Below are positions 45,759 through 61,297 of a stretch of DNA of 64,000 nt, piece by piece; position 1 is the stretch's first letter, and each line of letters begins with the position of its first letter. The notes beneath the pieces are model-generated. The model saw nothing but the letters and a program-made list of their open reading frames with translations. It was not told the DNA's origin and did not search any database. Made by a program: the position numbers and the translations under genes. This DNA comes from Micromonospora inyonensis (lineage in GTDB: Bacteria > Actinomycetota > Actinomycetes > Mycobacteriales > Micromonosporaceae): assembly GCF_900091415.1 (NCBI RefSeq), contig NZ_FMHU01000002.1, positions 992,001-1,056,000 of the forward strand, given 5' to 3'.

Positions 45759-45842
45759 GTCCGGGTGGCGGAATGGCAGACGCGCTAGCTTGAGGTGCTA
45801 GTGCCCGTATAGGGCGTGGGGGTTCAAGTCCCCCCTCGGACA
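45759..45842 (+). tRNA. tRNA-Leu (anticodon GAG)
   Basis: 84-nt tRNA with a long variable arm, as expected for Leu. Acceptor arm GTCCGGG pairs with CTCGGAC; the anticodon loop CTTGAGG sits on the CTAGC/GCTAG stem; the T-arm is GGGGGTTCAAGTCCCCC. CCA is not encoded. It is read in antisense as a misleading ORF (GLEPPRP...PLAPQASASAIP type). Its 3' end abuts the recombinase gene. Confidence 0.92.
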
Positions 45843-47503
45843 CGATCCATACACCCACGGTCCGCGTTGAGTTTCACTTCAGCGCGGGCCGTTTGTGTTT
45901 CTGGATGGTAGACGAGGCGGAGGCCGAGTTGTCGGTAGACCTTAGCCTTGTCGGCGGGGTCGGCGTCGCGGAGCACGGTGGTGATGTCGCCCAGGGCGTG
46001 GACCAGGTTGGTGATCTCTGTTCGGCTCATGGGACGCGGTCCGGTCGTTTGAATCATCTGTAGGTGGGCTTCTGCTCGGGTTCGTTCGGCTTGTGTCTGG
46101 GCTATCCATCCGGTGACCACTGCGGGGTCCGCTCCGGAGTCGAGGGCGGCTCGGTAGCGTTCGAGTTTCGCGTCGCAGTCGGCAATTGCGGCGCGGGCGG
46201 CGGCGGTGGCTGTGGGGGTGTGGTCCGGCTCGGTGTTGGCCATCGCGGTGATGGTGTCCGCGATGCGGCCGGGGGTGAAGGCGGTGGCGAGCCAGGTGTC
46301 GAGTGGCGCGATGAGGGCGTCTTCGCGGAGGTAGACGTTGCGGGGGTGGTCGACGTCGTTGGCCAGGGCGTATTCCTGGGGGATCCGGCAGCGGTAGTAG
46401 GCGTCGCCGTGGTTGTGTTGGCCCTGCATGCGGCGTTGGCAGGCGGCGCAGTAGACGAGTCCGCGGAACACGTACGGGTTGCGGGCGCGTCGGAGCCGTT
46501 GGTTGCCGGATTCTCGTCGCGCGCGTTGGCCGAGCAGGGTCTGTGCCTGTTCGAAGGTGGCGTCGTCGATGAGGGGCGGGTGGACGACCTCTTTGGAGAT
46601 GATCCACTTGTCGCGCGTGTTCCAGCGCATGACGCCGGTGTGACCGAGGGCGACGTCGTCGACGTCGAGGAGCACCTCGTCGGTGCGTTGTTTGTTCCAG
46701 ACTTGCCGTCCGGTGTAGCGGGGGTTGGTGAGGATCACGCGGATGGCGCTCTTGGACCAGGCGATGCCGCTGCGGTGTGGATTGCGGGCGCGGTCGTGGG
46801 CTGAGGGGCACGGGACGTGGTTGGCGGTCAGCCCTTCGGCGATGGCGAAGAGTCCGTAGCCGGCGAGGAATTCATCGAAGATCCGGCGGACGATCGGCGC
46901 GGTGTCGGGGTCTGGAGTGAGCGCGCGTAGACGTTTGCCGTCGGCGGCTTTGGCAGGGTTGGGGTGAGGGCCGAGGTCGCGGAGGGTGTAGCCGTATGGT
47001 GGGCGGCCGCCGAGGTAGCGGCCTTCGAGGAGGGTTTGGGCGGCCATGGCGGTGCGGACGCGGAGCTTGATGCGGTTGCGCTCGCCCTTGCTCATGCCGC
47101 CGAAGACGGACATGACGAGTTCGTGGGCCTCGTTGTCGGGGTCGATGGGGCCGCCGATCTCGGGTACCCAGAGTTCGACGCCGTAGTGGGCGAACAGTGG
47201 CACGGTGAGGCCGAACTGGTTGCCGTAGAAGGCTCGATGGGGTTCGCCGACGACGACGGCGGTGAATCCTCGTTGCGGGGTGCGTAGCGCGGTGAGGAGT
47301 TGGCTGGCCTGGACGCGGCGTTGCCAGGGTAGGGAGCGGCTCTGGCCGATGTCGAAGTACTCGGCGACGATGCGGCCGCCGTGGGGTTGGATGAGTGCGG
47401 TCGCCCGGCTGAGTTGCCAGCTTCGGGACGATTCGGGGTCCTGGTTGTCCTCTGTCGACACACGGCCGTAGAAGGCGAAGGGTTTTGGTCGAGGGGTGGT
47501 CAT
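45824..47503 (-). CDS. Large serine recombinase / integrase
   Basis: Site-specific serine recombinase, 559 residues. Resolvase domain with catalytic Ser16 in FYGRVSTEDNQ and ending GGMSKGERNRIKLRVRTAM. The recombinase domain follows (IVRRIFDEFLAGYGLFAIAE, then SKSAIRVILTNPRYTGRQVW), a zinc ribbon (VYCAACQRRMQG and YRCRIP) and a coiled-coil C-terminus. Its last six codons lie inside the tRNA-Leu 3' end on the opposite strand, so the attachment site is probably there. ATG 47503 overlaps the stop of the small upstream gene (ATGA). Codon use is less GC-rich than in the flanking core genes, in line with transfer. No excisionase is seen. Confidence 0.88.
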   Translation of the reverse strand: MTTPRPKPFAFYGRVSTEDNQDPESSRSWQLSRATALIQPHGGRIVAEYFDIGQSRSLPWQRRVQASQLLTALRTPQRGFTAVVVGEPHRAFYGNQFGLTVPLFAHYGVELWVPEIGGPIDPDNEAHELVMSVFGGMSKGERNRIKLRVRTAMAAQTLLEGRYLGGRPPYGYTLRDLGPHPNPAKAADGKRLRALTPDPDTAPIVRRIFDEFLAGYGLFAIAEGLTANHVPCPSAHDRARNPHRSGIAWSKSAIRVILTNPRYTGRQVWNKQRTDEVLLDVDDVALGHTGVMRWNTRDKWIISKEVVHPPLIDDATFEQAQTLLGQRARRESGNQRLRRARNPYVFRGLVYCAACQRRMQGQHNHGDAYYRCRIPQEYALANDVDHPRNVYLREDALIAPLDTWLATAFTPGRIADTITAMANTEPDHTPTATAAARAAIADCDAKLERYRAALDSGADPAVVTGWIAQTQAERTRAEAHLQMIQTTGPRPMSRTEITNLVHALGDITTVLRDADPADKAKVYRQLGLRLVYHPETQTARAEVKLNADRGCMDRVRGGT

Positions 47504-47766
47504 TGGTTCTCCTGGTCGGTGGTGTTGGTACGGCGGTCGTTGACTCGTCTGAGCAGGTTCAGTAGGGCGGCGGCTGCCCCGGGGTGCAGTTCGGCTGGTT
47601 CGCTGGGTGTCACCACGGAGATGACCCCGTTGGTTGCGGCATGGTCGTCGTTGTCGACCGTCCATGAACCGGTGTCTTCGGTCGTCCGGTCAAGTCGCTT
47701 GTCGTGGGTCGCAGCCGTTGCCAGACTGGCCTTCCTGGGGTTTTGATGTTTGGGAGGCGTTCTCAT
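47500..47766 (-). CDS. Small protein coupled to the recombinase (88 aa)
   Basis: Not recognised beyond its position. A polar protein ending ELHPGAAAALLNLLRRVNDR followed by a Thr/Asn/Gln-rich tail. The stop overlaps the recombinase ATG, which suggests translational coupling and possibly a directionality or accessory factor. ATG 47766 has GGAGG four bases upstream. A competing frame (47690-48034) reads MEANENASQTSKPQEGQ over the same DNA; the coupled frame is preferred. Confidence 0.5.
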   Translation of the reverse strand: MRTPPKHQNPRKASLATAATHDKRLDRTTEDTGSWTVDNDDHAATNGVISVVTPSEPAELHPGAAAALLNLLRRVNDRRTNTTDQENQ

Positions 47767-48531: not shown

Positions 48532-49065
48532 CTACGGAGCGGTCAGTTTCTGGAGTTCGTCGAGAATGATCTCCCAGCGGAAGGGTTGATCGTCCTGGGT
48601 TGGGCGTAGCGCTTGGGTGGGGGTGAGGCGTACGCCGTGGTCGGCGAGTAGTCGCAGGTTGGTGGTGAACGCGGGGTGGCGGGCGAGGGTGGGTTTGACG
48701 TAGGGGGAGGCGATGATCGGTAGGCCCGCGCCGAAGGATTCGTTGAGGATGCCGAGGGCGAGGCTGTCGTTGATGCCGGTGGCCCATTTGTTGATGGTGT
48801 TGAAGGTGGCCGGGACGACGGCGATGGCGTCGGCGCGTGATAGGACGCTCGGCTCGTCGGGGTGCCGTTGTCGGTAGCTGACGGGCTGCCCCGTGATGGT
48901 GGCCAGCCGTTCGGTGGGAAGCCAGGTGTGTGCGGTTTCCGTCGCGATGATGTGCACGTTCCAGTTGTCGTGCTGTACCGGCTCGATCAGCTCGGCGATG
49001 TGCCGGGCCGGTGGAGCGGCGCAGACCACCAGGTGGAGGAGACGGGTGTCCGCGGAGCCGGACAT
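48532..49065 (-). CDS. HFCD-type flavoprotein
   Basis: FMN-binding protein of the Cys-decarboxylase/phosphopantothenoylcysteine decarboxylase superfamily, 177 residues. LHLVVCAAPPARHIAELI opens the Rossmann-like fold, IIATETAHTWL holds the family region of the catalytic His, and PATFNTINKWATGINDSLAL is a variant of the PASANT motif. Relatives include the LanD enzymes that decarboxylate a C-terminal Cys, but the precursor here ends Cys-Pro-Ala, so that reaction would first need trimming. The ATG overlaps the regulator stop by one base (TAATG). Could equally act on a small molecule. Confidence 0.78.
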   Translation of the reverse strand: MSGSADTRLLHLVVCAAPPARHIAELIEPVQHDNWNVHIIATETAHTWLPTERLATITGQPVSYRQRHPDEPSVLSRADAIAVVPATFNTINKWATGINDSLALGILNESFGAGLPIIASPYVKPTLARHPAFTTNLRLLADHGVRLTPTQALRPTQDDQPFRWEIILDELQKLTAP

Positions 49066-50447
49066 TAGGCGGTGACCTCGGCGCGCTCAGCGAGTGCCCG
49101 CAGGCCGGGAGTGATGGCACGCCTTTCGCGGGCGAGTAGGTCGCCGATCATGCGGCGCGTCCTGCCGTGCGTATGGACCTTCTGGGGTGCGATTCGTTCG
49201 GCTTCGAGAAGGTGCAGGACGGCTGCGGGGTCGTTGTCGGGCGATGTCGCGTAGGCGGCCGCGAGGTCGAGGTGGACTTGGGCGCGGCGGCTGACCAGGG
49301 CTGCCGGCAGCGACGAGGTGTCGAGTCGTTCTCCAAGATGGATGGCTAGCTGCGGCCTGTCCGTTCGCGCAGCGATGGAGATGCGGTGGATCATGACGTT
49401 TGTCGGTCCGAACCCGGTCCACAGGTCGTTGCGATCACTGCCGAGTAGCCGGGCCAGAGCGTAGGCGTCGTCGAGGTGCTGACCGGCTGCGGCGGGCTGG
49501 GCCTGGCGAGCGGCGATCAGTCCCGCGAGAAGGGTCAACGCTCCGCGGGTCGACAGGACACGTGGTCGCGTCGATACTGGGTCTCTTCTGACCCGGCCGA
49601 GGGCGGAGAGCACCACCTCCTCGGCGTCGTCGACGCGGTTCGGCATGGCCAGTAGCGCAGTGCCCACCGAGAATGCTGTAGCCGCGACGAGGGCAGCGTC
49701 CTCGGTCTGGTCGGCCGCGATACACGCGGCGCGGTCGGCGGCTACCCAGGCGAGGCTGGGATCGCCGAGTTTGACGGCGAGCTTGGCAGCGGCGAGGTTC
49801 GCTGCCGCCAGTATGGCGGCAGCTCGGAGCCGTTGCGTGTCGGTGCAGGTGCGGGTCAGGAGGTGCGCCTGCTCCAGAGTGTCGGGCAGCGCGCGGACCG
49901 TCTCGGCGTAGTTGCCACGCTGATAGAGGCTGTGGACGTGGGCTACCCGCTGACGGACCTCCGAAAGCGTGGTGGGCTCGACCGTCTGTTTCGATGCGGC
50001 AGGAGCGAGCAGGTGACGGCGTAGCTCGGCCAGCAGACGCGACGGCGCGTCGTCGCGACGGTCAGCGTCCGCCGGAGGCTGGCGCAGGTCGGCCTTATCA
50101 GGCAATGCCGTGGTGAGGACGGGTCCGGGCACGTCCGTGTTGGCGAGCGCACCCCACCGGGCCTTGCGCGCGGCCGACTCCTGCTCTGCCCGGAACTGTC
50201 GTTCGAGCTGCCGGTAGGCGTCATAGGCGGCGACGAGCTCGCCCCCGGCACTCAACACCGACTCGCACTGCTGCCAGAACACCCGGTCAACTATCTGTCT
50301 CCCCCGCTCCACCATCCCCACTGTGCTGCGGGTGGTGAAAACGGCTCGGGCGACCTCGCTCTGGATCATTCCGCGTGCCTTGCGCCGCGTGGCGAGCATT
50401 CTGCCGAGGGCTTCCCTGGCCTCCTGGAGTTGCTGGCGATCGATCAT
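49065..50447 (-). CDS. XRE-type helix-turn-helix regulator with TPR-like C-terminus
   Basis: Transcriptional regulator, 460 residues. Residues about 10-65 form an XRE helix-turn-helix (GRMLATRRKARGMIQSEVAR, then TRSTVGMVERGRQI). The remaining ~330 residues are helical TPR-like repeats of the kind that sense peptides or small ligands in actinobacterial regulators. ATG 50447 is chosen over 50474 because GGGAGGG lies three bases upstream. It forms an overlapping pair with the flavoprotein gene and is divergent from the lanthipeptide operon, which it probably controls. Confidence 0.82.
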   Translation of the reverse strand: MIDRQQLQEAREALGRMLATRRKARGMIQSEVARAVFTTRSTVGMVERGRQIVDRVFWQQCESVLSAGGELVAAYDAYRQLERQFRAEQESAARKARWGALANTDVPGPVLTTALPDKADLRQPPADADRRDDAPSRLLAELRRHLLAPAASKQTVEPTTLSEVRQRVAHVHSLYQRGNYAETVRALPDTLEQAHLLTRTCTDTQRLRAAAILAAANLAAAKLAVKLGDPSLAWVAADRAACIAADQTEDAALVAATAFSVGTALLAMPNRVDDAEEVVLSALGRVRRDPVSTRPRVLSTRGALTLLAGLIAARQAQPAAAGQHLDDAYALARLLGSDRNDLWTGFGPTNVMIHRISIAARTDRPQLAIHLGERLDTSSLPAALVSRRAQVHLDLAAAYATSPDNDPAAVLHLLEAERIAPQKVHTHGRTRRMIGDLLARERRAITPGLRALAERAEVTA

Positions 50448-50849
50448 GAGCCCTCCCGCCACCCGAGCGTGCATCGCCCCCGATAGCCCTCCTCCGCACG
50501 GTCATTCCCGCGGCGCGTCGCCTGGAATGCAACGGGTCGACGTACGGCGACCTGACCTTAGCCGATGCAGCGGTGCGAGTCAGCCAGCGCGCCGCGCTCA
50601 ACCCAGCGTGTGTGGTTGAGGCGTTCGAGGGCCGATGGGGCCGTGTCGAAAACCGATGTCGAGGGTGTTCGACATGCGTCTGGTTGCGTCTACTGGTTCC
50701 TGCGTTACGGATGCCGCACCGGGATTCGGGCGGAGGAGGTATGCCAAGTGGCCGGTGCGACGGCGACTGCTTCGCAACCTCTGGCGAAGCCGCCTGCAGG
50801 TCGGCTTAGGCCGGCGACGGCAACAACCCATAACCAGGATAGGAGCCAC
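50448..50849. other. Divergent regulatory region of the lanthipeptide cluster
   Basis: About 400 bases without a supported gene. It holds the dyad TGTCGAA (50644-50650) / TTCGACA (50668-50674) with a 17-base spacer, a good candidate for the XRE regulator's site. The open frame 50573-50809 has scattered Cys but no ribosome site or leader-like features and is not called. Confidence 0.5.
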
Positions 50850-52049
50850 ATGACTACCGCAAGTGGGAGAGGTGCACGGGATCCCATGGCGCTGCGGACG
50901 GCGATGGTGGCGGAGCTGAGCGAGGACACGATCAGGTCGGAGGCGGTGGCTGCCGCGTTCTCGGTCGTGCCGCGTCACCTGTTCGCCCCTGGCGAGTCTC
51001 TGGACGTGGTGTACGACTCGAACACCCCGTTGGTGACGAAGACCGGTACGGACGGTACGGCGCTCAGTTCGGTGTCGGCGGCGCACATTCAGGCGGTGAT
51101 GCTGGAGCAGGCCGAGATCGAGCCGGGGATGCGGGTTCTGGAGACCGGTTCGGGTGGGTACAACGCGGCGCTGATCGCGGAGCTGGTCGGTCCGCAGGGT
51201 GCGGTGACGTCGGTGGACATCGACCCGGAGATCGTCGCTCGGGCCCGCGCCTGCTTGCAGACCGCCGGCTACGACCGGGTGCGGGTCGTGCAGGCCGACG
51301 CCGAATACGGTGTACCGGAGCAGGCACCGTACGACCGGATCATCGTCACGGTCGGGGCGTGGGACATCCCACCGGCTTGGATCGCCCAGCTGTCCGAACG
51401 GGGCCGGATCGTGGTGCCACTGCGGTTTGCCGGCCTGTCCCGCTGCGTCGCCTTCGACCTGACCGGAGGGCACCTCGTCAGTCACAGCTACTGCCTTGGC
51501 GGGTTCGTGCCGATGCAGGGCGCGGGCGCCTATTCCGAGACGCTGGTGCCGATCAACGGAGAGGCGACGCTGCGCGTGGACGGGCCGGACCCGGGCTTCG
51601 ACGTGCCAGCGCTACGCAAGGCGGTTCACGCACCGAGGATCGAGCGGTGGTCCGGGGCGGCGTTCGACATGCCCGACGAGCTGGAGTTGTTCGTGGTGAC
51701 CAGCGCGTCCCACGTTCCGTTCCTGTACGCGAGCCAGCAGTTGGTGGACCAGGGTGTGTTCAGCCCGGCGGTGACCTACGGCACGGCCGCCGTGGTCGAG
51801 GGCGGCAGTTTCGCCTACCGGACGAAACGCGGGAACGAGGGCCTCGGCGGATGGGAGAGCGGTGTCTACGCCTACGGCCCGCAGGCCGAGGCGGTCGCTG
51901 ACAGGTATGTCGGGCTGTTGCGCCGCTGGGCGGCCGACTTCCGCCGTCGCGGGGCCGCGCGGATCGAGTACCTGCCCACCAGCGCAGGCGTGCCGGACGG
52001 CTGGTACGTGCCGAAGCGCCACGGTGCCGTCGCGGTGTCCTGGCGCTGA
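50850..52049 (+). CDS. FxLD-system methyltransferase (PIMT-like), copy 1
   Basis: Protein-L-isoaspartate methyltransferase homologue of the FxLD lanthipeptide group, 399 residues. VVPRHLFAPG and SVSAAHIQAVMLEQ are PIMT substrate-side motifs, VLETGSGGYNAALIAEL (near residue 96) is the AdoMet motif I, and SVDIDPEIVARAR motif II. The ~180-residue C-terminal half (from GGFVPMQGAGAY) is specific to the peptide-modifying relatives. Known LanS-type enzymes methylate an Asp of the lanthipeptide, giving an aspartimide and then isoAsp. AGGAG four bases before the ATG. First gene of the biosynthetic operon, 61 bp before the precursor. Confidence 0.88.
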   Translation: MTTASGRGARDPMALRTAMVAELSEDTIRSEAVAAAFSVVPRHLFAPGESLDVVYDSNTPLVTKTGTDGTALSSVSAAHIQAVMLEQAEIEPGMRVLETGSGGYNAALIAELVGPQGAVTSVDIDPEIVARARACLQTAGYDRVRVVQADAEYGVPEQAPYDRIIVTVGAWDIPPAWIAQLSERGRIVVPLRFAGLSRCVAFDLTGGHLVSHSYCLGGFVPMQGAGAYSETLVPINGEATLRVDGPDPGFDVPALRKAVHAPRIERWSGAAFDMPDELELFVVTSASHVPFLYASQQLVDQGVFSPAVTYGTAAVVEGGSFAYRTKRGNEGLGGWESGVYAYGPQAEAVADRYVGLLRRWAADFRRRGAARIEYLPTSAGVPDGWYVPKRHGAVAVSWR

Positions 52050-52110
52050 CAGCTACCGGCGTCCCAGCCGGGGCACCGGATGGATCACAACCCTTTCGAA
52101 GGAGGCTGTC

Positions 52111-52317
52111 GTGTCGATCATGACCGAGGAGCGGACCGCTCCGCTGGCGTCGCCGGTGGCGGTGGACGGGAAGAAGGACGAGTTCGGGCCGGACGACTGG
52201 GAGCTGGACATCACGTTCGTCGAGTCCGGCGAGAGCGTCGACAAGCTGATCTACATGACGAACGACGGGTGCGGCAAGACCTGCCAGTCCGCCTGCAGCA
52301 CCACCTGCCCGGCGTAG
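52111..52317 (+). CDS. lanA: FxLD-family lanthipeptide precursor (68 aa)
   Basis: Ribosomal precursor peptide. The leader (about 1-45) contains DDWELDITFVESG; W-E-L-D at 30-33 stands where the family has F-x-L-D. The C-terminal core includes MTNDGCGKTCQSACSTTCPA. Its four Cys are at 54, 58, 62 and 66, exactly every fourth residue, with Thr50, Thr57, Ser60, Ser63, Thr64 and Thr65 available for dehydration. Asp52-Gly53 is the natural target for the PIMT-like enzymes. GTG 52111 has AAGGAGG five bases upstream; ATG 52120 is an alternative start. Confidence 0.9.
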   Translation: MSIMTEERTAPLASPVAVDGKKDEFGPDDWELDITFVESGESVDKLIYMTNDGCGKTCQSACSTTCPA

Positions 52318-52393
52318 GCCGGAGACCTGGGGCGTCTGGCCAGGTGGGTTTCGTCCGCGTGGCCAGACGCCTCCCGTTCCCAGGGGAGGACAT

Positions 52394-55300
52394 GTGTACC
52401 GGTACCTGGATGCGCTGGTGGTGCGCGCGTCGACCTGCTCTCCCGATTGGTTGGTCGGCGGTTGGCCGGACCTGACCGGCGCGGAGGCTGCAGGGTCGTG
52501 GCAGCGATGGTTGGAGCAGGTGTCCGCGGTGCCGCGGTTCGCGGCGGCGGTGGAGTTGGCCAGCCCCGTGCTCGCCGACCGTGTCCGCGCGGTCTGTGCC
52601 GGCCGCGTCGGGGAGGGGGAGGCGCGGCGGGTAGTCGTGTCGGTCCTGCGGTACCTGCTGCGGGCGCGTGGCCGGGCGACGCCGTACGGCTTGTTCGCCG
52701 GGGTCGCCGCCGCCCGCTTGGCCCCCACCGCCGCCGTCCGGTTCGGTGACGGACACCGAGCGGTGCTTCGGGTACGGGCGGCGTGGCTTTCGGGCCTGGT
52801 CGACCGGCTGGAGGCCGATCCGGTGCTTCGGCCGCATCTGACGGTCCGCGCCAACAACCTCCTAGCGCGCCGGGATGGGCAGATCGTGCTGGAGCACCGC
52901 CCCCACCAGAATCTCGGGGAGCCGCCCACCCAGGTACAGGTACGCGCCACCGGCCCGGTACTCGCGGCGCTGACGGCAGCGGCGGACCCGATTCGACTGG
53001 ACGATCTGGCCAGCAAACTCGCCACCGACCACGCCGTGCCCATTCACGTTGTGCACGCGCTGCTCGCGCAGATGGTGTCGCAACGGCTCCTGCTGAGCGC
53101 GCTACGGCCGGCGACTACCTGCACTGATCCCCTGTCCGCCGTCACCGCCGCCCTTCAGCAGGCGGTGGCCGACGCCGCCGACAGCACCCCAGACGACGGC
53201 GCGCTCGCCCGGGCACGTGCGACGCTCGGCGTACTGCACACCCTCGCGCAGCGGGCTGCGCCGGACACCGCGACGACCGGCGCACGGCAGCGCGCGCAGG
53301 TGGCCGAGACGATGACCGGTCTACACCCCGCCGACGAGTCACCTGTCGCAGTCGATCTGCGCTTGGACGCCGACGTACGTGTTCCTGAGATCGTCGCGGT
53401 AGAGGCGGCGAGCGCGGCCGGTGCCCTGGTGCGTCTCGCGACTGTCGGTCGAGGAGGGTGGGCGGCCTGGCACCGCCGTTTCCTCGAGCGTTACGGACCC
53501 CATGCGGTCGTGCCGGTCCGTGACGCGGTGGACGCCGACCTTGGCCTGGGCTACCCCGCCGGTTACCACGGCACCACTCCCACACCGCCACCGGCCCTGA
53601 CCACGCGTGATCGGAAGCTGCTGACCCTTGCCCAGGAAGCGGCGCTGCGACGCGAACGCGAGATCGTGCTCGATGACGCCGCCATCACCGACCTCGCCGA
53701 CAGCGCACCGGTCAGGCACGTCCAGCCGAGCACCGAGCTGACCGTCACCGTGCACGCCCGTACCGCGCAGGACCTCGACCGGGGTGAGTTTCTGCTGGAG
53801 GTGGTCGGAGTGTCCCGCAACGCCGGCACCGTCACCGGCCGGTTCATCGACCTGCTCGACCCTGCGGATCGGCAGCGCATCGCCAGCCAGTACGCGGCCC
53901 TACCTGGCGTGACCCGTGGTGCATTGCGTGTCCAGGTGTCGGCGGTGACCCCCTACACGGTCACCGAGGACGTGGCCCGCGCCCCACAAGTGATGCCGCA
54001 CCATGTCTCGCTCGGGGAGTACCACGTCAACGCACCCAACCGGATCGCGCTGGACGACATCGCGGTCACTGCTAACGCCGACCGGGTCTACCTGGTGTCG
54101 GTCTCCCAGCGGTGTGTGGTGGAGCCGACCGTGCTCAACGCGGTCGAGCAGGTGCACTACACCCTGCCGATCGTGCGGTTCCTCACCGAGGCCCCCACCG
54201 CCTTCACGACACCGTGTGGCGGGTTCGACTGGGGTGCTGCCAGCGGTCTGCCGTTCCTACCCGCCTTGCGCTACCAGCGGAGCATCCTGTCGCCAGCACG
54301 CTGGCTGCTACCGGCAAGCGCCCTACCCGCCCCCGCCACGAGCTGGCAGGAGTGGAGCCGGGCCCTGGCCTCCTGGCGCGACACGGCTGGCTGCCCGCCG
54401 GGGGTGTACCTCGGCGAGAGCGACCAACGCATCCACCTGGATCTCGCCGAGCCGGCTCATCAGGCACTGCTGCGCGACCACCTGCGTCGCACCCCGACCG
54501 CCGTGCTGCGCGCCGCGCCTCCGCCTGACACGGCTGGCTGGATGGGCGGGCACGCCCACGAGATCGTCGTCTCCTTGGCCGCGACGGTCGACCCGGCAGC
54601 ACCACCACGCACGCTTGCCACCGCACCCGTGGTTGACGTCCGCGAATACGGACACCTCCCCGGCGGCGGTGACCGCCTCTTCGTCAAGCTGTACGGCCAT
54701 CCCGACCGGCAGACACCGATCCTTACCCGACACCTTCCGTCCCTGATCCGCCAGCTCAGCCCACAGGCACGGTGGTGGTTTCTGCGCTACGGCGACCCGG
54801 AACCGCACCTGAGGCTGAGACTGACGGGCGACGCGAGCACCGCGACGCTCGCCGAGTGGACACGCGACCTGCGCCGCGTCGGCCTGCTCGCGCGGGTACA
54901 GGTTGACACCGACTACCCGGAGACCGCTCGCTTCGGCGGACCCACCGCCGGCACCGCCGCCGACGAGGTCTTCGCCACCGACTCCGCAGCCGCGCTCACG
55001 CAGTTGCTCGCCATCGATAGCAGGCTGGCACCCGCTGTCCGTGCGGTGACCGCGGCGAGCCTGCTGGATATCACTACCGCAGTGATCGGCGATACCAGGA
55101 CCGGTATGCGATGGCTGATCGACCACACGCGCCCGCACCGGCCCGCCCCACCCCGCGACGTCTACCAGCGCACGGTCGCGCTCGCCAACCCCGACCAGAC
55201 CGGCCTGGACATACTCGGCAACGGCACCGAACTGCGGACTGTCTGGCAGCGTCGCCGCGAGGCGCTGAACACCTACCGCGACGCCCTGCACACCGCAGGA

Positions 55301-55447
55301 GCCGCCGTGGACAGTGTCTTGCCTGACCTGCTGCACCTGCACCACACCCGCATGATCGGCCCCGATCCGGACAGCGAACGCGCCTGCCTGCACCTGGCCC
55401 GTGCCGCCGCGCTGAGCTGGACCGCCCGCGCCCGGAGCCAACCATGA
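52394..55447 (+). CDS. lanB: Lantibiotic dehydratase LanB (full length)
   Basis: Class I dehydratase that glutamylates Ser/Thr of the precursor from Glu-tRNA and eliminates glutamate to give Dha/Dhb, 1017 residues. The N-terminal glutamylation domain opens with RGRATPYGLFAGVAAARL and includes GEYHVNAPNRIALDD. The C-terminal SpaB_C elimination domain covers about residues 740-1010 (GGGDRLFVKLYG, RWWFLRYGDPEPHLRLRL). GTG start after GGGGAGGA, 76 bp after the precursor. Its stop overlaps the lanC ATG (ATGA), so the two are coupled. Confidence 0.9.
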   Translation: MYRYLDALVVRASTCSPDWLVGGWPDLTGAEAAGSWQRWLEQVSAVPRFAAAVELASPVLADRVRAVCAGRVGEGEARRVVVSVLRYLLRARGRATPYGLFAGVAAARLAPTAAVRFGDGHRAVLRVRAAWLSGLVDRLEADPVLRPHLTVRANNLLARRDGQIVLEHRPHQNLGEPPTQVQVRATGPVLAALTAAADPIRLDDLASKLATDHAVPIHVVHALLAQMVSQRLLLSALRPATTCTDPLSAVTAALQQAVADAADSTPDDGALARARATLGVLHTLAQRAAPDTATTGARQRAQVAETMTGLHPADESPVAVDLRLDADVRVPEIVAVEAASAAGALVRLATVGRGGWAAWHRRFLERYGPHAVVPVRDAVDADLGLGYPAGYHGTTPTPPPALTTRDRKLLTLAQEAALRREREIVLDDAAITDLADSAPVRHVQPSTELTVTVHARTAQDLDRGEFLLEVVGVSRNAGTVTGRFIDLLDPADRQRIASQYAALPGVTRGALRVQVSAVTPYTVTEDVARAPQVMPHHVSLGEYHVNAPNRIALDDIAVTANADRVYLVSVSQRCVVEPTVLNAVEQVHYTLPIVRFLTEAPTAFTTPCGGFDWGAASGLPFLPALRYQRSILSPARWLLPASALPAPATSWQEWSRALASWRDTAGCPPGVYLGESDQRIHLDLAEPAHQALLRDHLRRTPTAVLRAAPPPDTAGWMGGHAHEIVVSLAATVDPAAPPRTLATAPVVDVREYGHLPGGGDRLFVKLYGHPDRQTPILTRHLPSLIRQLSPQARWWFLRYGDPEPHLRLRLTGDASTATLAEWTRDLRRVGLLARVQVDTDYPETARFGGPTAGTAADEVFATDSAAALTQLLAIDSRLAPAVRAVTAASLLDITTAVIGDTRTGMRWLIDHTRPHRPAPPRDVYQRTVALANPDQTGLDILGNGTELRTVWQRRREALNTYRDALHTAGAAVDSVLPDLLHLHHTRMIGPDPDSERACLHLARAAALSWTARARSQP

Positions 55448-56673
55448 GCCCCACGGACCCGAGCGCGCTCGCGGCATCGACAGCCATCGCCGAGGCACTG
55501 GCCGACCCACAAGCCATCCAGCCCGCATTCCAGGGGCGAGCGAGGCCACAATCCCTCGCGGGCGGCGCGGTCGGTATCGCATTGCTGCACATCGAACGCG
55601 CCCGCACCGGCCACGGCGACGACACCGTAGCCCACACCTGGCTGAAACTCGCCGCGTCCCAGCCGATCAGCGCCGGCGGCAACGCCAACCTGTTCCACGG
55701 CACACCAGCCCTCGGCCTCGCCCTGCACGCCGCCGGCACGACCCGGTACCGGCGCGCGCTGGCCGCGCTCGACGACACCACCATCACCCTCACCCGAGGG
55801 CGCCTGGCCGACGCTAACGCCCGCATCGACCGGGGCGACCCGCTGCTGATGCGCGAGTTCGACCTGATCCACGGCCTGACCGGACTCGGCGTCTACCACC
55901 TGCACCGCCACCCCGGCCACCCCGTCACCCGCGACGTACTCGCTTACCTGGTCCGCCTCACCCGCCCTCTCCCCGGCCAACGCGGCACCACCAATTTGCC
56001 GCCGTGGTGGATGCCGGTCGGGCTGTCCGGCGAACCCGACTCCGACCACCCAAACGGGCACGGGAACCTGGGAGTCGCCCACGGCATCAGCGCCGTCATC
56101 GCGCTGCTCTCCCTCGCTGTCCTTCACGACCTGACCACCACCAGCCTGCGCGACGCTCTCGCCCGGCTCTGCGCCTGGACCGATCAGTGGCGCCGGGACG
56201 ACGACGCCGGCCCGTGGTGGCCCGGCTACCTCACCATCGACCACACTGGCCGCCTCGAACCGTCGCTTCGTCCCCGGCCCTCCTGGTGCTACGGCATCGC
56301 GGGCACCGCCCGGGCCCAACAGTTGGCCGGCATCGCGCTCGGCGACGCCCGCCGACAGGCAACGGCCGAACGCGGGATCCTGGCCGCACTGCGCGAACCG
56401 ACCCGACCCGCCCTACTCCCTGAGATCGGCCTGTGCCACGGCAAAGCCGGCCTGCTCCACGCCGCATTCCGCATGGCAGTCGACGCCCGCAGCCCGGTAC
56501 TGGCCGCCGAACTACCCGACCTGGCCGGCCACCTCGCCGCCCAACTACTCCGCGAGCCGATAACCGAACCGGAACTCATGGACGGCGCGGCCGGAGCCGC
56601 CCTCGCGCTGCACGCCGTCGGCACCGGCACCCCACCCATGTCCGCGTGGGACGCAGTCCTCCTACTCGCCTAA
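55444..56673 (+). CDS. lanC: Lanthipeptide cyclase LanC
   Basis: Zinc enzyme that adds Cys thiols to Dha/Dhb to form thioether rings, 409 residues, alpha/alpha toroid. Zn ligands are all present: Cys282 in SWCYGIAG, and Cys331-His332 in GLCHGKAGLL. LIHGLTGLGVYHL and GNLGVAHGISAVIALL carry the conserved His and Gly-rich turns. The C-terminus ends shortly after MDGAAGAALALHAVG, as usual. Translationally coupled to lanB. Confidence 0.92.
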   Translation: MSPTDPSALAASTAIAEALADPQAIQPAFQGRARPQSLAGGAVGIALLHIERARTGHGDDTVAHTWLKLAASQPISAGGNANLFHGTPALGLALHAAGTTRYRRALAALDDTTITLTRGRLADANARIDRGDPLLMREFDLIHGLTGLGVYHLHRHPGHPVTRDVLAYLVRLTRPLPGQRGTTNLPPWWMPVGLSGEPDSDHPNGHGNLGVAHGISAVIALLSLAVLHDLTTTSLRDALARLCAWTDQWRRDDDAGPWWPGYLTIDHTGRLEPSLRPRPSWCYGIAGTARAQQLAGIALGDARRQATAERGILAALREPTRPALLPEIGLCHGKAGLLHAAFRMAVDARSPVLAAELPDLAGHLAAQLLREPITEPELMDGAAGAALALHAVGTGTPPMSAWDAVLLLA

Positions 56674-56716
56674 CAACACCCGACCCGCAAACCGCACTCA
56701 CCGCCAAAGGAACGCG

Positions 56717-57603
56717 ATGATGCCGTCGCCATGGCTCCAGATCACCATCGAGCTGCCCGATCCGGACCGGGCCGAGCACACCGCCGTCACCCACCTCGCC
56801 CCCGTACTCATGAAGGCGGAAGCCGACAGGCGCATCGCTGGCTGGTTCTTCATCGAAAGACACCCCAGTGGCGGCTGCGCTACCTCCCCACCGAGGAGAC
56901 CACCCTCGCGCGGGAGCACCTCTTCACCCGCCTCGACGCCTTCATCCGTGAACGGCACATCACCCGCGCGGTTGAGGCCGTCTACGAACCCGAAACCCGC
57001 GCCTTCGGCGGTGACCAAGCGATGGCCGTCGCGCATGAACTGTGGCACGACGACAGCCGACACGTACTCGGCTACCTCGCTACCACCGCAGCAGACCCCA
57101 CCACCCGCCGCCGCCGCGAACTCGCGATCCTGCTTGCCAGCACCCTGCTACGCGCGGCCGGCCTGGACTGGTACGAGCAAGGCGACGTCTGGTCCAAGAT
57201 CGCCCACCACCGGACCCCGCCCGACAACCCCAGCCCCGACAAGACCCCGGCTTTCCAGGCAAGGCTGCGCCGGCTGATGAGCACGGACCTGACCAACCTC
57301 AACCAACCGGCATCGCCGCACCTGATGGGTGCCGACTGGGCTGCCGCGTTCACCACCGCAGGCCACGACCTAGCCCACCTCGCCGGCACCGGCAACCTCC
57401 GCCGTGGGCTGCGCGACATCCTCGCCCACCACGTCATCTTCGCGATGAACCGGATCGGCCTCCCCGCGACCACCCAGGCCGTCCTCGCCACCCACGCCGC
57501 CACCGTCATCTTCGGCCCAGACCCCACCGTCCAACCAGCCACAAACGCCACCTACCAGCACGCCCACGCGACGGTCACCGCAGCCAGAGCGGGAACCGGC
57601 TAA
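56717..57603 (+). CDS. Thiopeptide-type (SpaB_C-like) biosynthesis protein, frameshifted
   Basis: Stand-alone homologue of the LanB elimination domain, about 295 residues when joined. The start PSPWLQITIELPD to GWFFIERHP is in the frame of ATG 56717. The continuation PQWRLRYLPTEETTL to the end (LASTLLRAAGLDWYEQGDVW, then GADWAAAFTTAGHDLAHLAG) is one frame over. One C missing from the CCCC run at 56863-56866 explains the break. In split class I systems such proteins perform glutamate elimination; here it duplicates the C-terminal domain of LanB. Weak AAAGGAA ribosome site; stop overlaps the next ATG (TAATG). Confidence 0.75.
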
Positions 57604-58706
57604 TGGACCCGACCGGCGCGCAAGCCCGTAGATTCCCCCTCGTCGCCCGGCCCCGACCCGCCTGCACCCCACTGCCCGAGCGGGTAACCGACCTGACCCG
57701 CCGCGCTGCCGCCGCCACCCGCAACGACGACCCTGCCGCCGCAACCGCCGTGGTCAACCTCGCCGCCCTGCTCGCATCAGACTGCGGACGATCCGACCTG
57801 GCCCGGCAATGGTCAGCACGGCTCGCCCGCTCCGCGCTCGTCCACCCCGCACCCGACTTCCAAACAGCAAGTCACAGCCTCGAACCCATCATCAACCTCG
57901 CCCGGCTACGCACCCGCGCCGGCGACGGCACCGGAGCATGGCGGCTCCTCGAAACCCTCTACCGGGCCATCGCATCCCGCACCGACACCACCATCGACGG
58001 CATCACCGTCCCCGCCGCACACCTGACGCCTGAGCCCACCGCACACCGCAAACTCCGCCAATGGCTCTGGACGGTCCTGCTGTCCAGCGGCGCGCACGCC
58101 CTCGCCGCCGCCGGCCGATGGGACGACGCCTACCGCCGGCTCCAACAACACAACGGCATCGGCCGCCGCATGCTCGACGGCCGGCAGGTCGCTGTCATAG
58201 CCCACGCCACCGCAGGCAGACGTGCCCGCGCCCTGGAGCTACTGCACGACACCGAGCCAGGCGAACCGTGGGAACGCGCCGTCACCGCATCCCTGACCCT
58301 GCTGTGCCAGCAAGCCGCCATCACCAGCACCACCCAACGACACGCCGTCGCCGCCTACCAGAGGCTGGACACCACAGCAGCAAACCTCGTCGTGTTCCAC
58401 ACCCGCCTGGGGATGTGCCTCGCCGACGCGCTCGGCGGCGTCGAGCAGCCTGCGGTACAGGCCATCACCGCCGACCTCATCGAGCGGGCCAACGGCGATG
58501 GATACGCCGCCCGAGACGTCCTCGCCCACCCCGGATGCCGCGCCATCCTCAACCAACGACAGGCCGAACAACTCACCGAGCAGGTCACCGCCTGCGGACT
58601 CGACGCCGGCCATATACCCGCGCGCTTGCTGACCGAAATCGCCGACGCCCTAGACACCGCCGAAGCCGTCATCCGGGTAGCACTCACTGCCGGCACATCG
58701 ACGTGA
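57603..58706 (+). CDS. Helical protein of the lanthipeptide operon (367 aa)
   Basis: Not assigned to a known enzyme family. An all-helical, Ala/Leu/Arg-rich protein with TPR-like spacing (LARQWSARLARSALV, LRTRAGDGTGAWRLLETLYR, LAAAGRWDDAYRRLQQHNGI). The start overlaps the stop of the SpaB_C-like gene, so it is translated with the biosynthetic genes. A scaffold, chaperone or immunity/regulatory role are all possible. No signal peptide or membrane segment is seen. Confidence 0.6.
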   Translation: MDPTGAQARRFPLVARPRPACTPLPERVTDLTRRAAAATRNDDPAAATAVVNLAALLASDCGRSDLARQWSARLARSALVHPAPDFQTASHSLEPIINLARLRTRAGDGTGAWRLLETLYRAIASRTDTTIDGITVPAAHLTPEPTAHRKLRQWLWTVLLSSGAHALAAAGRWDDAYRRLQQHNGIGRRMLDGRQVAVIAHATAGRRARALELLHDTEPGEPWERAVTASLTLLCQQAAITSTTQRHAVAAYQRLDTTAANLVVFHTRLGMCLADALGGVEQPAVQAITADLIERANGDGYAARDVLAHPGCRAILNQRQAEQLTEQVTACGLDAGHIPARLLTEIADALDTAEAVIRVALTAGTST

Positions 58707-58801
58707 GCGCCACGACCCGACGGGAAAGGCGCTTTATGTCGCATGCGCCCTATATTGTCGCGCCGTTCGTGCAGAGACCCCACCGACCGGAGGTTTTGAT
58801 C

Positions 58802-60049
58802 ATGGCTGGTTCCGCGCTCGACACCATCTCGGAAATCGACAGTAGCCCGGAGGAGGCCCGGGCCCGGCTGGTCGACCTGTTGCTCGCTGACGGCCGGATC
58901 ACCTCACCGGAGGTGGAGGCGGCGTTTCGTCGGGTGCCGCGGCACCTGTTCGCCCCCGGCGGGGTCAGCGTCGACGCCGCGTACGCCGACGACGTGGTCA
59001 TCACGAAACGTGGTCCGGACGGGCGCGCGACCAGTTCCATCTCCGCGCCGTGGCTGCAGGCCATGATGCTGGAAGCCGCCCGCCTACGCCCCGGTGGGCG
59101 TGTGCTGGAGATCGGTTCCGGCGGTTACAACGCCGCGCTCATCGCCGAGGCCGTTGGCCCGCGCGGCATGGTCACCAGCATCGACATCGACTCCGACATC
59201 GTCGCCAATGCCCGGACCGCCCTCGACATCGCCGGGTACCCGGACGTCCACGTGGTGCAGGCCGACGCGGACACTGGCTGGCCGGCAAGGGCGCCGTACG
59301 ACGCGATCGTCGTTACCGTCGAGGCCAGCGACATCCCACCCGCCTGGACCGATCAGCTCGCCTCCGACGGGGTCCTCGTCGTACCGCTTCGGATGCGCGG
59401 CAACACCCGATGCCTCACGCTCGCCCGCGACGGCGACCATCTCACCGCCACCGATGCGATCCTCTGCGGCTTCGTGCCCATGCAAGGCGCTGGCGCCAAC
59501 CCCGTGACGCGGCGGGCGCTGCGCGGTGACGACGTGACCCTGCGCATCGACGACCCCGAGACCCGAGCCCTCGACCTCGACGCCCTGACCCCGGCGCTGG
59601 ACGGTCCCGGGGTCGATGCCTGGTCCGAGGTGACCATCGCACCCGCGACGCCGTTCGAGTCGCTGCACCTCTGGCTGGCCAGCCAACCCCACCCGTACGG
59701 TCTCCTCGCCGTGGACCGGGACCGCGCTGCGGACATGGACCCGCAGAACTGGGTCTCCTGCCCTGCCCTTCTCACGGGCGACAGCATCGCCTACCTCACC
59801 ATCCGCCAGCTCGACGACAGCACCTGGGAGTTCGGCGCCCGTGGCTACGGATCCGACGCCGCACCACTGACCCAGCTCGTCGTCGACCTCATCACCGTCT
59901 GGGACCGTGACCACCGCAAGCAGCCCGGCCCGGACATCAGGGTGTACCCCACCGGCGTCACCATTCCGCCCACCGCCCAACCACAACTACTCGTTCCTCG
60001 CCACCACACCACCGCCGCGATCACCTGGACCGCCGGGGATCAGCGGTGA
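58802..60049 (+). CDS. FxLD-system methyltransferase (PIMT-like), copy 2
   Basis: Second PIMT-like enzyme, 415 residues, clearly a paralogue of the one at 50850: RVPRHLFAPGG, SISAPWLQAMMLEAA, VLEIGSGGYNAALIAEAVG, DIPPAWTDQLASDG and CGFVPMQGAGANP line up block by block. The C-terminal halves differ more. ATG 58802 with GGAGG eight bases upstream; an AT-rich box TATATT (58751-58756) precedes it, so it may have its own promoter. Stop overlaps the kinase GTG (GTGA). Only one precursor is visible for two such enzymes. Confidence 0.85.
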   Translation: MAGSALDTISEIDSSPEEARARLVDLLLADGRITSPEVEAAFRRVPRHLFAPGGVSVDAAYADDVVITKRGPDGRATSSISAPWLQAMMLEAARLRPGGRVLEIGSGGYNAALIAEAVGPRGMVTSIDIDSDIVANARTALDIAGYPDVHVVQADADTGWPARAPYDAIVVTVEASDIPPAWTDQLASDGVLVVPLRMRGNTRCLTLARDGDHLTATDAILCGFVPMQGAGANPVTRRALRGDDVTLRIDDPETRALDLDALTPALDGPGVDAWSEVTIAPATPFESLHLWLASQPHPYGLLAVDRDRAADMDPQNWVSCPALLTGDSIAYLTIRQLDDSTWEFGARGYGSDAAPLTQLVVDLITVWDRDHRKQPGPDIRVYPTGVTIPPTAQPQLLVPRHHTTAAITWTAGDQR

Positions 60050-60255
60050 CCGCTACCGAGCCGACCCTTGTCGTCGTTCGCGGGAACTCCGGTAGCGGGA
60101 AGACGACCGCCGCCCGTGAGGCCCGCCGACGCTACGGCCGGGGCATCGCACTCCTGGAGCAGGACCACCTGCGTCGGATTGTGCTGCGCGAACACGACAG
60201 CTCACACATCGACCCGGTCGCTCCGGCGTTCATCACCGCGACCGCCCGCACCGCT
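60046..60255 (+). pseudogene. 5' fragment of a P-loop kinase
   Basis: About 70 codons of a zeta-toxin/chloramphenicol-phosphotransferase-like ATP-binding protein: TLVVVRGNSGSGKTTAAREA with Walker A GNSGSGKTT, ALLEQDHLRRIVLRE and the start of the next helix (FITATARTAV). Starts on a GTG overlapping the methyltransferase stop, so it belonged to the lanthipeptide operon. At about 60255 the sequence becomes the antisense of an ISL3-type transposase; the rest (normally ~120 more residues) is gone. Confidence 0.7.
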
Positions 60256-61297
60256 GTCTTCGGCTCGGCGTTTGCGCAGGTGTTCGCGGTGGGGGTCGAC
60301 GAGGCTGGCCCGGTACTTGGGGACGCGGAGCATCCGCTGGGGCCGGTCGGTGCGCGCGTAGCGTTTGACGGTGTTCAGGGCCAGCTGCAGGCGGCGGGCG
60401 CACTCCAGCAGGCCCACGCCCTGGTCGAGCAGGTCATGGACCTGGTGCCAGTGTTGCAGGGTCGTCCGCGCGCGGGGCCCGTCATACAGGGGCGCGTCCA
60501 GCACGGCGGCCCAGCAGGTGCTGGATGCCTTCACCTCGCTCAGGGCGGCTTCGCACAGGTTGTGCCACAGGTGCCACCGGTCGGCGACCTGCACCGCGTC
60601 GGGCAGGGCGCGGCGGATGGCCTTGGCATAGGTGGCGGGGCCGTCACGGCACACGACCTGCACGCCCGGATGTTCGCGTAGCCACGCTTCGAGGGTGTGG
60701 GCGGTGCGGTCGGGCAGCACGTCGATCCGCTCGTGTTTCGGCGTCGATCAGCACGGTGGCGTAGCGGTGCCGCCGGCGCAGAGCGAAATCGTCCACGCTG
60801 ATCACGCGGGGTGTCCGCCCGGTGGGCAACGGGATGCGTAGCAGGGCGCGCAGGGCCGTGTGACGGGACAGGCCCATGGCGAGTGTCGCCAGCAGACGGG
60901 CTCCTGCCCGGCCCGCTAACTCCTTGGCCGCGGCCTTGACGTGCCGGGACAGGCGGGCCGTGCGTCGCTGGTATCGCTCCAGCACCCCGGGAACCTGTTC
61001 GCGGAAGGTGTGGCGGCAGCCGCGCGTCGGGCACACCAGACGCCGCACCCGCACGCGGACCACCACCCGACGCCCGTCGACCGGAACGTCGGCCACCGTC
61101 CGCCAGTGATAGCCGTGGACCCGTTCCGACGAGGCCCCGCACGTCGGGCAGACCGCGGTGTCCTGCGGCGTCGGGGCCCGCACCACGATCCGCTCGCCCT
61201 CGTCGGCCACGTCCGCTACGACCAGCGGAGAAAGACCCGAAAACACCGTCCGCGCAAGCTCATCGACATCCTTCACGCCAGTGTCGACGACCCTCAC
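60256..61297 (-). pseudogene. ISL3-family transposase, frameshifted and 3'-truncated
   Basis: Degenerate transposase. From ATG 61297: N-terminal region with the zinc-binding CPTCGASSERVHGYHWRTVA and CPTRGCRHTF, then a helix-turn-helix (GLSRHTALRALLRIPLP) and the first catalytic strand SVDDFALRRRHRYATVLID. At about 60731-60736 the frame shifts by two missing bases. The continuation VLPDRTAHTLEAWLREHPGV, VCRDGPATYAKAIRRALPDA and QVADRWHLWHNLCEA includes the second catalytic Asp. It runs to YRASLVDPHREHLRKRRAED at about 60256, where the truncated kinase begins. The C-terminal third, with the last catalytic Glu, is missing. Not functional. Confidence 0.8.

Follow-up and report, generated by a model that had tools for sequence, protein, structure and literature searches.

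The closest described relatives of the locus analysed here are coi and olv, two families of actinobacterial class I lanthipeptide clusters (PMC9486935). CoiA1, the coi precursor, is described as taking three dehydrations and as forming the rings Thr43-Cys47, Thr50-Cys55 and Cys51-Thr57; the first ring is N-terminal and the other two overlap at the C-terminus, one of them being reversed, with its Cys before its Thr (PMC9486935). The Cys51-Thr57 ring is a D-allo-L-methyllanthionine (MeLan) that requires an extra lyase; with CoiB and CoiC but no syn lyase, the peptide was stalled at one dehydration plus glutamylations (PMC9486935). Stand-alone syn lyases are a described arrangement as well (PMC9486935). 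In the olv system, OlvSA converts an Asp in the MeLan ring of OlvA to isoaspartate (isoAsp) via an aspartimide (PMC13001092). The present locus lies in a stretch of 64,000 nucleotides from Micromonospora inyonensis (hereafter the window) and belongs to the FxLD family, one of the class I lanthipeptide families met most often in actinobacteria (PMC7268733). It is likely a class I FxLD lanthipeptide cluster of the coi type (a 'lanthimiditide' cluster) whose separate lyase gene is frameshifted in this genome. Judged from its sequence, it is a genuine and well-conserved cluster of known kind, ordinary apart from the frameshifted lyase gene and an extra Cys66 in the precursor.

The precursor begins with a GTG codon, and its 68-residue translation contains the leader motif W30-E-L-D33 and Cys at positions 54, 58, 62 and 66, as a preliminary description of this DNA had reported. 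That description's assignment to the FxLD class I lanthipeptides was also borne out: the precursor scored 57 bits against TIGR04363 (FxLD family lanthipeptide; curated cut-off 30), the methyltransferases passed TIGR04364, and LanB and LanC were found to contain the expected Pfam domains. The precursor has W-E-L-D in place of the literal F-x-L-D and is still accepted by TIGR04363; hydrophobic substitutions in this leader motif have been reported (PMC12710340). The core segment T50-N-D52-G-C54 matches TxDGC, a motif described as common to such precursors (PMC13001092, PMC10787088).

Among 25 close homologues from a protein database, the C-x3-C-x3-C-x3-C core was found in 22 (P0012 counted by eye), and Trp occupies the leader Phe position in 20. 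Eleven of the close homologues carry an organism name, eight being from Micromonospora and one from Verrucosispora; most are already named FxLD family lanthipeptide by NCBI. A wider set of 81 loci was assembled from 80 stretches fetched around TIGR04363 matches plus the window, some of them ending at contig ends; the matches in G075, G115 and G024, as well as two below the cut-off, lie outside it. Of the 82 precursors of these loci, 18 have C-x3-C-x3-C-x2-C and four have C-x3-C-x3-C-x3-C (window, L061, L067 and L070; the L067 core was counted by eye, since the scripted table gave a leader artefact for it, and the other three were listed as such), and Trp stands at the Phe position in 4/82. This distribution of leader and core suggests a small, conserved subgroup, and because the precursor passes a curated model and its core recurs in homologues, the cluster is not a chance assembly. 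The combination of a W-E-L-D leader with a four-Cys core is not unique to the window; its unusual points are the broken lyase and Cys66. A sequence search of solved structures returned none for the precursor or its core, and among the matches listed, the titles and abstract openings of the partial literature searched held no description of the subgroup's product. A precursor start like that of the window, with W-G-L-D, was also seen at L223 (G243:C18), where the reading runs off after the core M-T in a fetched stretch without matched cluster genes; this is likely a precursor remnant.

The residue pairs T50/C54, T57/C62 and C58/T64 of the window precursor correspond to the three CoiA1 ring pairs at a constant offset of 7. 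By analogy, the overlapping coi-like pattern appears to fit the window core and is a better prediction than a stack of small rings. Relative to Cys47, Cys51 and Cys55 of CoiA1, the window core has Cys66 in addition, and no characterised product with a fourth Cys was found in the literature searched. The preliminary description had stated that no characterised product with such a core was known to it; this holds for natural end products and for the fourth Cys, but the ring patterns of OlvA and CoiA1 are known.

The separate lyase gene is read in two frames, up to W-F-F-I in the frame of the ATG at 56717 and for the remainder in the frame of 56731, whereas the frame is open in all 12 aligned relatives. 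With blastn, a one-base gap was placed at about 56,853 relative to Micromonospora sonchi (L112), Micromonospora endophytica (L113), L070, L067 and the two sister genomes G252 and G221. An open homologue of 295 residues was found to be 95% identical to the window lyase over 88% of the query. Against G252 (9.6 kb, 96%), this gap is the only one within a coding gene that is not a multiple of three, all others of that sort being intergenic if the MT1 start is taken as 50850; against G221, there is an additional gap near the regulator start and, within the lyase, two gaps of two bases each that cancel out. The syn lyase signature was observed in the window and in 12/12 aligned relatives: Lys replaces the NisB Tyr, the His of H961 is missing, Ala takes the place of R826, and both Arg are kept. 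LanB, for its part, keeps His at the position of NisB H961 as well as the Arg, as aligned to NisB with the His stretch at weak score. While a coi-type cluster is marked by an additional intact syn-type lyase and an olv-type cluster by the absence of an additional lyase gene, the window holds such a gene with its signature but in a broken frame, which is open in both G252 and G221. In a search of solved structures by sequence, the separate lyase gave one weak match (E 0.8) and its intact homologue P0035 none at E up to 10. The extra SpaB_C-like protein of the preliminary description is present as a second Lant_dehydr_C match, but not as one open frame, the frameshift having been missed. Apparently broken copies were noted elsewhere: in the FxLD cluster of L083 (G114), the LanB and separate lyase matches each fall in two frames, and in L222 (G303:C4:125500-143715), a second FxLD cluster copy about 105 kb from the open copy L221 of the same genome, the LanB, LanC and tetratricopeptide repeat (TPR)-like matches fall in several frames.

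In the pathway proposed for the intact system, LanB would bind the W-E-L-D leader and glutamylate core Thr residues; its own lyase domain would carry out anti elimination of glutamate at T50 and T57, with syn elimination at T64 left to the separate lyase. LanC would close T50-C54, T57-C62 and the reversed ring C58-T64. The first methyltransferase, MT1, is predicted by analogy to act on Asp52, methylating it within the first ring and so leading through an aspartimide to isoaspartate. Cys66 would be left over, either as a free Cys or joined to S60 or S63. The pathway would be expected to stall in this genome, by analogy with CoiA1 lacking its syn lyase, unless the frameshift is a sequence error or an intact lyase stands in. 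A candidate for the latter exists, as the same genome holds a second FxLD precursor at locus L032 (G000:C1:2339500-2359400), together with LanB, LanC, an open lyase (48% identical), a TPR-like gene and two methyltransferases, the one at the far end being 78.5% identical to MT1 of the window. Lyase rescue in trans from L032 is possible.

Whether the frameshift is real bears directly on this proposal. An assembly or base-calling error in an otherwise fully working cluster has a chance only slightly below even. Past the shift (248 codons), the ratio of nonsynonymous to synonymous substitution rates (dN/dS) of the lyase is 0.49 against G252 and 0.38 against G221, near the values for LanB (0.39 and 0.36), with MT1, LanC and the TPR-like gene at 0.15-0.34; the shifted part is thus not clearly relaxed, which indicates that the break is either recent or an assembly error. 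The open frames of LanB, LanC, the TPR-like gene, MT1 and the second methyltransferase, MT2, fit an error too. However, an error-rich genome would show more than the single coding gap found against G252, the site contains no base run longer than four, and the broken lyase and LanB frames at L083 and L222 make a real loss plausible. That the lyase has truly been lost, so that the strain is shifting its product from coi-like to olv-like with the lyase domain of LanB acting alone, is considered unlikely: the olv system without an extra lyase still yields a modified peptide (PMC9486935, PMC13001092) and the neighbouring kinase gene is likewise disrupted, by an insertion sequence, but CoiB plus CoiC stalled without the syn lyase, as noted above. 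There is a modest chance, smaller than an even one by far, that a coi-type cluster has been caught just after syn-glutamyl lyase loss in a genome retaining an open lyase in its second FxLD cluster. If so, cross-cluster rescue, stalling and a switch of ring stereochemistry would be three distinct outcomes, and Cys66 could offer a fourth ring not seen in CoiA1. Several further observations weigh, as does the dN/dS of the shifted part, against the reading of a coi-type cluster with a frameshifted lyase. The likeness to CoiA1 was drawn from published residue positions rather than from a sequence alignment, and the lyase signature was read by eye from motifs rather than from a direct alignment to NisB. 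The coi lyase is fused to a methyltransferase, whereas the window lyase is separate. The last Cys is one residue earlier in 3/25 close homologues, which places Ser instead of Thr at the T64 position, and neither a separate nor a fused lyase match was found in 10/81 loci.

Two other alternatives concern the rings and MT2. The preliminary description had predicted a stack of four small thioether rings, each Cys joined to a residue just before it, with up to six dehydrations. The four-residue Cys step, conserved in nearly all of the close homologues, and the Ser or Thr residues that precede several Cys are compatible with such a stack, but CoiA1, with the same step at Cys47/51/55, has overlapping rings of which one is reversed and took three dehydrations (PMC9486935), and the last spacing is two residues, not three, in the 18 family precursors counted above. 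The stack is accordingly very improbable. MT2 had been listed as a second PIMT-like (protein isoaspartate methyltransferase-like) enzyme of the locus. It does pass TIGR04364 (439 bits, MT1 scoring 510, at a cut-off of 320), but its membership in the cluster is doubtful, and a role as second tailoring enzyme of the same peptide is judged rather unlikely. The TPR-like gene is followed by MT2 in the window and G252, by a split MT2 in G221, and by a relative in L033, L207, L209 and L210. Full-length relatives at least 60% identical occur in 15 places, the window included. Seven of these are beside FxLD-type genes (G000, G252, G296, G310, G123 at 4.67 Mb, G290 and G220, the last with no LanB or precursor seen within the fetched part), but eight are in stretches without a LanB, LanC or precursor match (L202, L204, L205, L206, L208, L211, L212 and L213, the L211 stretch being just 9.4 kb), and 5/13 other genomes with the MT2 lineage have no TIGR04363 match. 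A match to a small AAA_33/zeta-type kinase adjoins the MT2 relative in seven of the eight non-lanthipeptide stretches, in one case at 19 bits. In a tree of 164 methyltransferases, MT1 and MT2 are separated, MT2 being one of 19 members of a clade with support 1.0; the M. sonchi stretch L112 shows no MT2, and matches to MT2 at 1e-40 were found in 64/160 genus genomes, 11 first-look candidates having been scored per genome. MT2 is thus a separate lineage, probably an add-on, whose place in the pathway is doubtful. The idea that two methyltransferases serve two Asp residues of one core was dropped once this lineage emerged. The MT2 gene that lies past the cluster in G221 (L201) is in two fragments with about 1.35 kb between them; the same genome has a full-length copy at a distance of about 78 kb.

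FxLD loci are widespread among the relatives of this genome. TIGR04363 matches were found in at least 69/200 genomes of the bacterial family, a lower bound because 35 first-look candidates were scored in most genomes. Locus contents were counted with self-set bit-score thresholds on matches to the window proteins, by which distant members can be missed. Under these thresholds, the 81 loci contain LanB in 80, LanC in 78, at least one methyltransferase in 78 and at least two in 11, a separate lyase in 56 (window included), a lyase fused to a methyltransferase in 15, and a TPR-like gene at 100 bits or more in 42. Comparison of core and gene order, proposed in the preliminary description, shows the core and the LanB, LanC and methyltransferase genes to recur, but a flavoprotein homologue was found in only 6/81 loci and a regulator homologue (at least 60 bits) in 12/81, both counts including the window.

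The features of the locus are collected in Table 1. The regulator, flavoprotein, LanB and LanC genes named in the preliminary description are all present by their domains, and its helical protein by a structure model. Its statement that starts and stops mostly overlap was too strong: counting the kinase fragment, four of the nine junctions overlap (flavoprotein/regulator, LanB/LanC, lyase/TPR-like and MT2/kinase fragment), four others are separated by about 43-95 bases (MT2 start taken as 58802), and the regulator and MT1 are divergent.

Table 1. Features of the FxLD lanthipeptide locus and its edges (positions in the window).
Feature	Position	Strand	Evidence
Flavoprotein-domain protein	48532..49065	-	Pfam Flavoprotein, 49 bits
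HTH_31 regulator	49065..50474	-	Pfam
MT1, PIMT-like Asp methyltransferase (LanSA/OlvSA type)	50850..52049	+	TIGR04364, 510 bits; PCMT Pfam
FxLD-family lanthipeptide precursor, 68 residues	52111..52317	+	TIGR04363, 57 bits; translation
LanB, full dehydratase with glutamylation domain and anti-type glutamyl lyase domain	52394..55447	+	Lant_dehydr_N 645 bits, Lant_dehydr_C 141 bits
LanC cyclase	55444..56673	+	LANC_like 107 bits; matches to 8byk and NisC
Separate syn-type glutamyl lyase homologue (SpaB_C-like), frameshifted	56717..57603	+	Lant_dehydr_C 76 bits, TIGR03891 154 bits (longer piece)
TPR-like alpha-solenoid protein	57603..58706	+	Model pLDDT (predicted local distance difference test) 91; in 42/81 loci
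MT2, second PIMT-like methyltransferase	58802..60049	+	TIGR04364, 439 bits; neighbourhoods; tree
AAA_33/zeta-type kinase, 5' fragment	60046..60254	+	Gene longer in sister genome; alignments to both sisters stop at 60,254
ISL3-type insertion element, transposase pieces	60255..61297	-	Zn_ribbon_ISL3, DDE_Tnp_ISL3; 100% identical copy elsewhere in genome

The edges were set by comparison with about 80 kb fetched from each sister genome. Matches of at least 400 bases to the window span 50,638-60,254 in G252 and 50,136-60,254, in two pieces, in G221; the right-hand limit is where the ISL3 element cuts the kinase gene. The regulator and flavoprotein (48,532-50,474) lie outside the block common to the window and G252, so their placement in one locus with the cluster was not upheld, and the flavoprotein, being beyond the block shared with the sisters, is taken to be local. 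The status of the regulator is less clear, as its start is shared with G221, and both sisters have a weaker homologue upstream, at 106 bits in G252 and 202 bits in G221; such regulators are nearby only in some loci. LanD-type oxidative decarboxylation at the C-terminus needs a precursor ending in Cys. The window precursor ends in C-P-A, which makes a LanD role of the flavoprotein unlikely, and an aminovinylcysteine product formed through it was excluded, the precursor having no terminal Cys and the flavoprotein not being a conserved neighbour. The model of the TPR-like protein is an alpha-solenoid; against the PDB, its fold gave a best E of 0.013 and none at E<=0.001. A TPR-like gene follows a fused lyase-methyltransferase in many Streptomyces loci, and by position the window protein may be a counterpart of CoiH. 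At 45759-47665, a serine recombinase gene runs at its end into a tRNA-Leu(gag) of the opposite strand, which suggests an integrated element near the cluster. When the 3' end of the tRNA-Leu was searched for as a repeated attachment site, the genome was found to hold the tRNA copy only (up to one mismatch), and elsewhere in the window there was only a 15-base match.

The close Micromonospora set offers a ready comparison, in which near-identical precursors occur with an open or a broken lyase and with or without MT2. It is also evident from the MT2 lineage that a TIGR04364 match alone does not imply the presence of an FxLD precursor.

How does the locus compare with known systems? The separate lyase resembles SptBb, the syn-glutamyl lyase of the SapT cluster, in its active-site Lys, the missing catalytic His and a non-Arg residue at the Arg826 position, which is Leu in SptBb and Ala in the window lyase; however, SptBb is half of a split LanB, whereas the window LanB is complete (PMC9011353, PMC9890492). 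Within the TIGR04363/TIGR04364 FxLD system (families I 1-4 of PMC7268733), the window precursor and both methyltransferases pass the cut-offs, but Trp replaces Phe, and TIGR04364 also accepts MT2, a member of a lineage that is often without an FxLD partner. With olv of Streptomyces olivaceus (OlvA, OlvSA), the locus shares LanB, LanC and the methyltransferase, and isoAsp would be expected in the first ring (PMC13001092); olv differs in being described without an extra lyase and without CoiH (PMC9486935). The closest likeness is to coi of Streptomyces coelicolor A3(2) (CoiA1, CoiB, CoiC, CoiSA, CoiH), which likewise combines a full LanB with an extra syn-type lyase, LanC, a PIMT-like methyltransferase and a Cys step of four, and which includes CoiH, a protein of unknown function that the TPR-like protein may correspond to (PMC9486935). 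Relative to coi, the window has a frame-broken lyase, the extra Cys66, and the added MT2 and kinase fragment.

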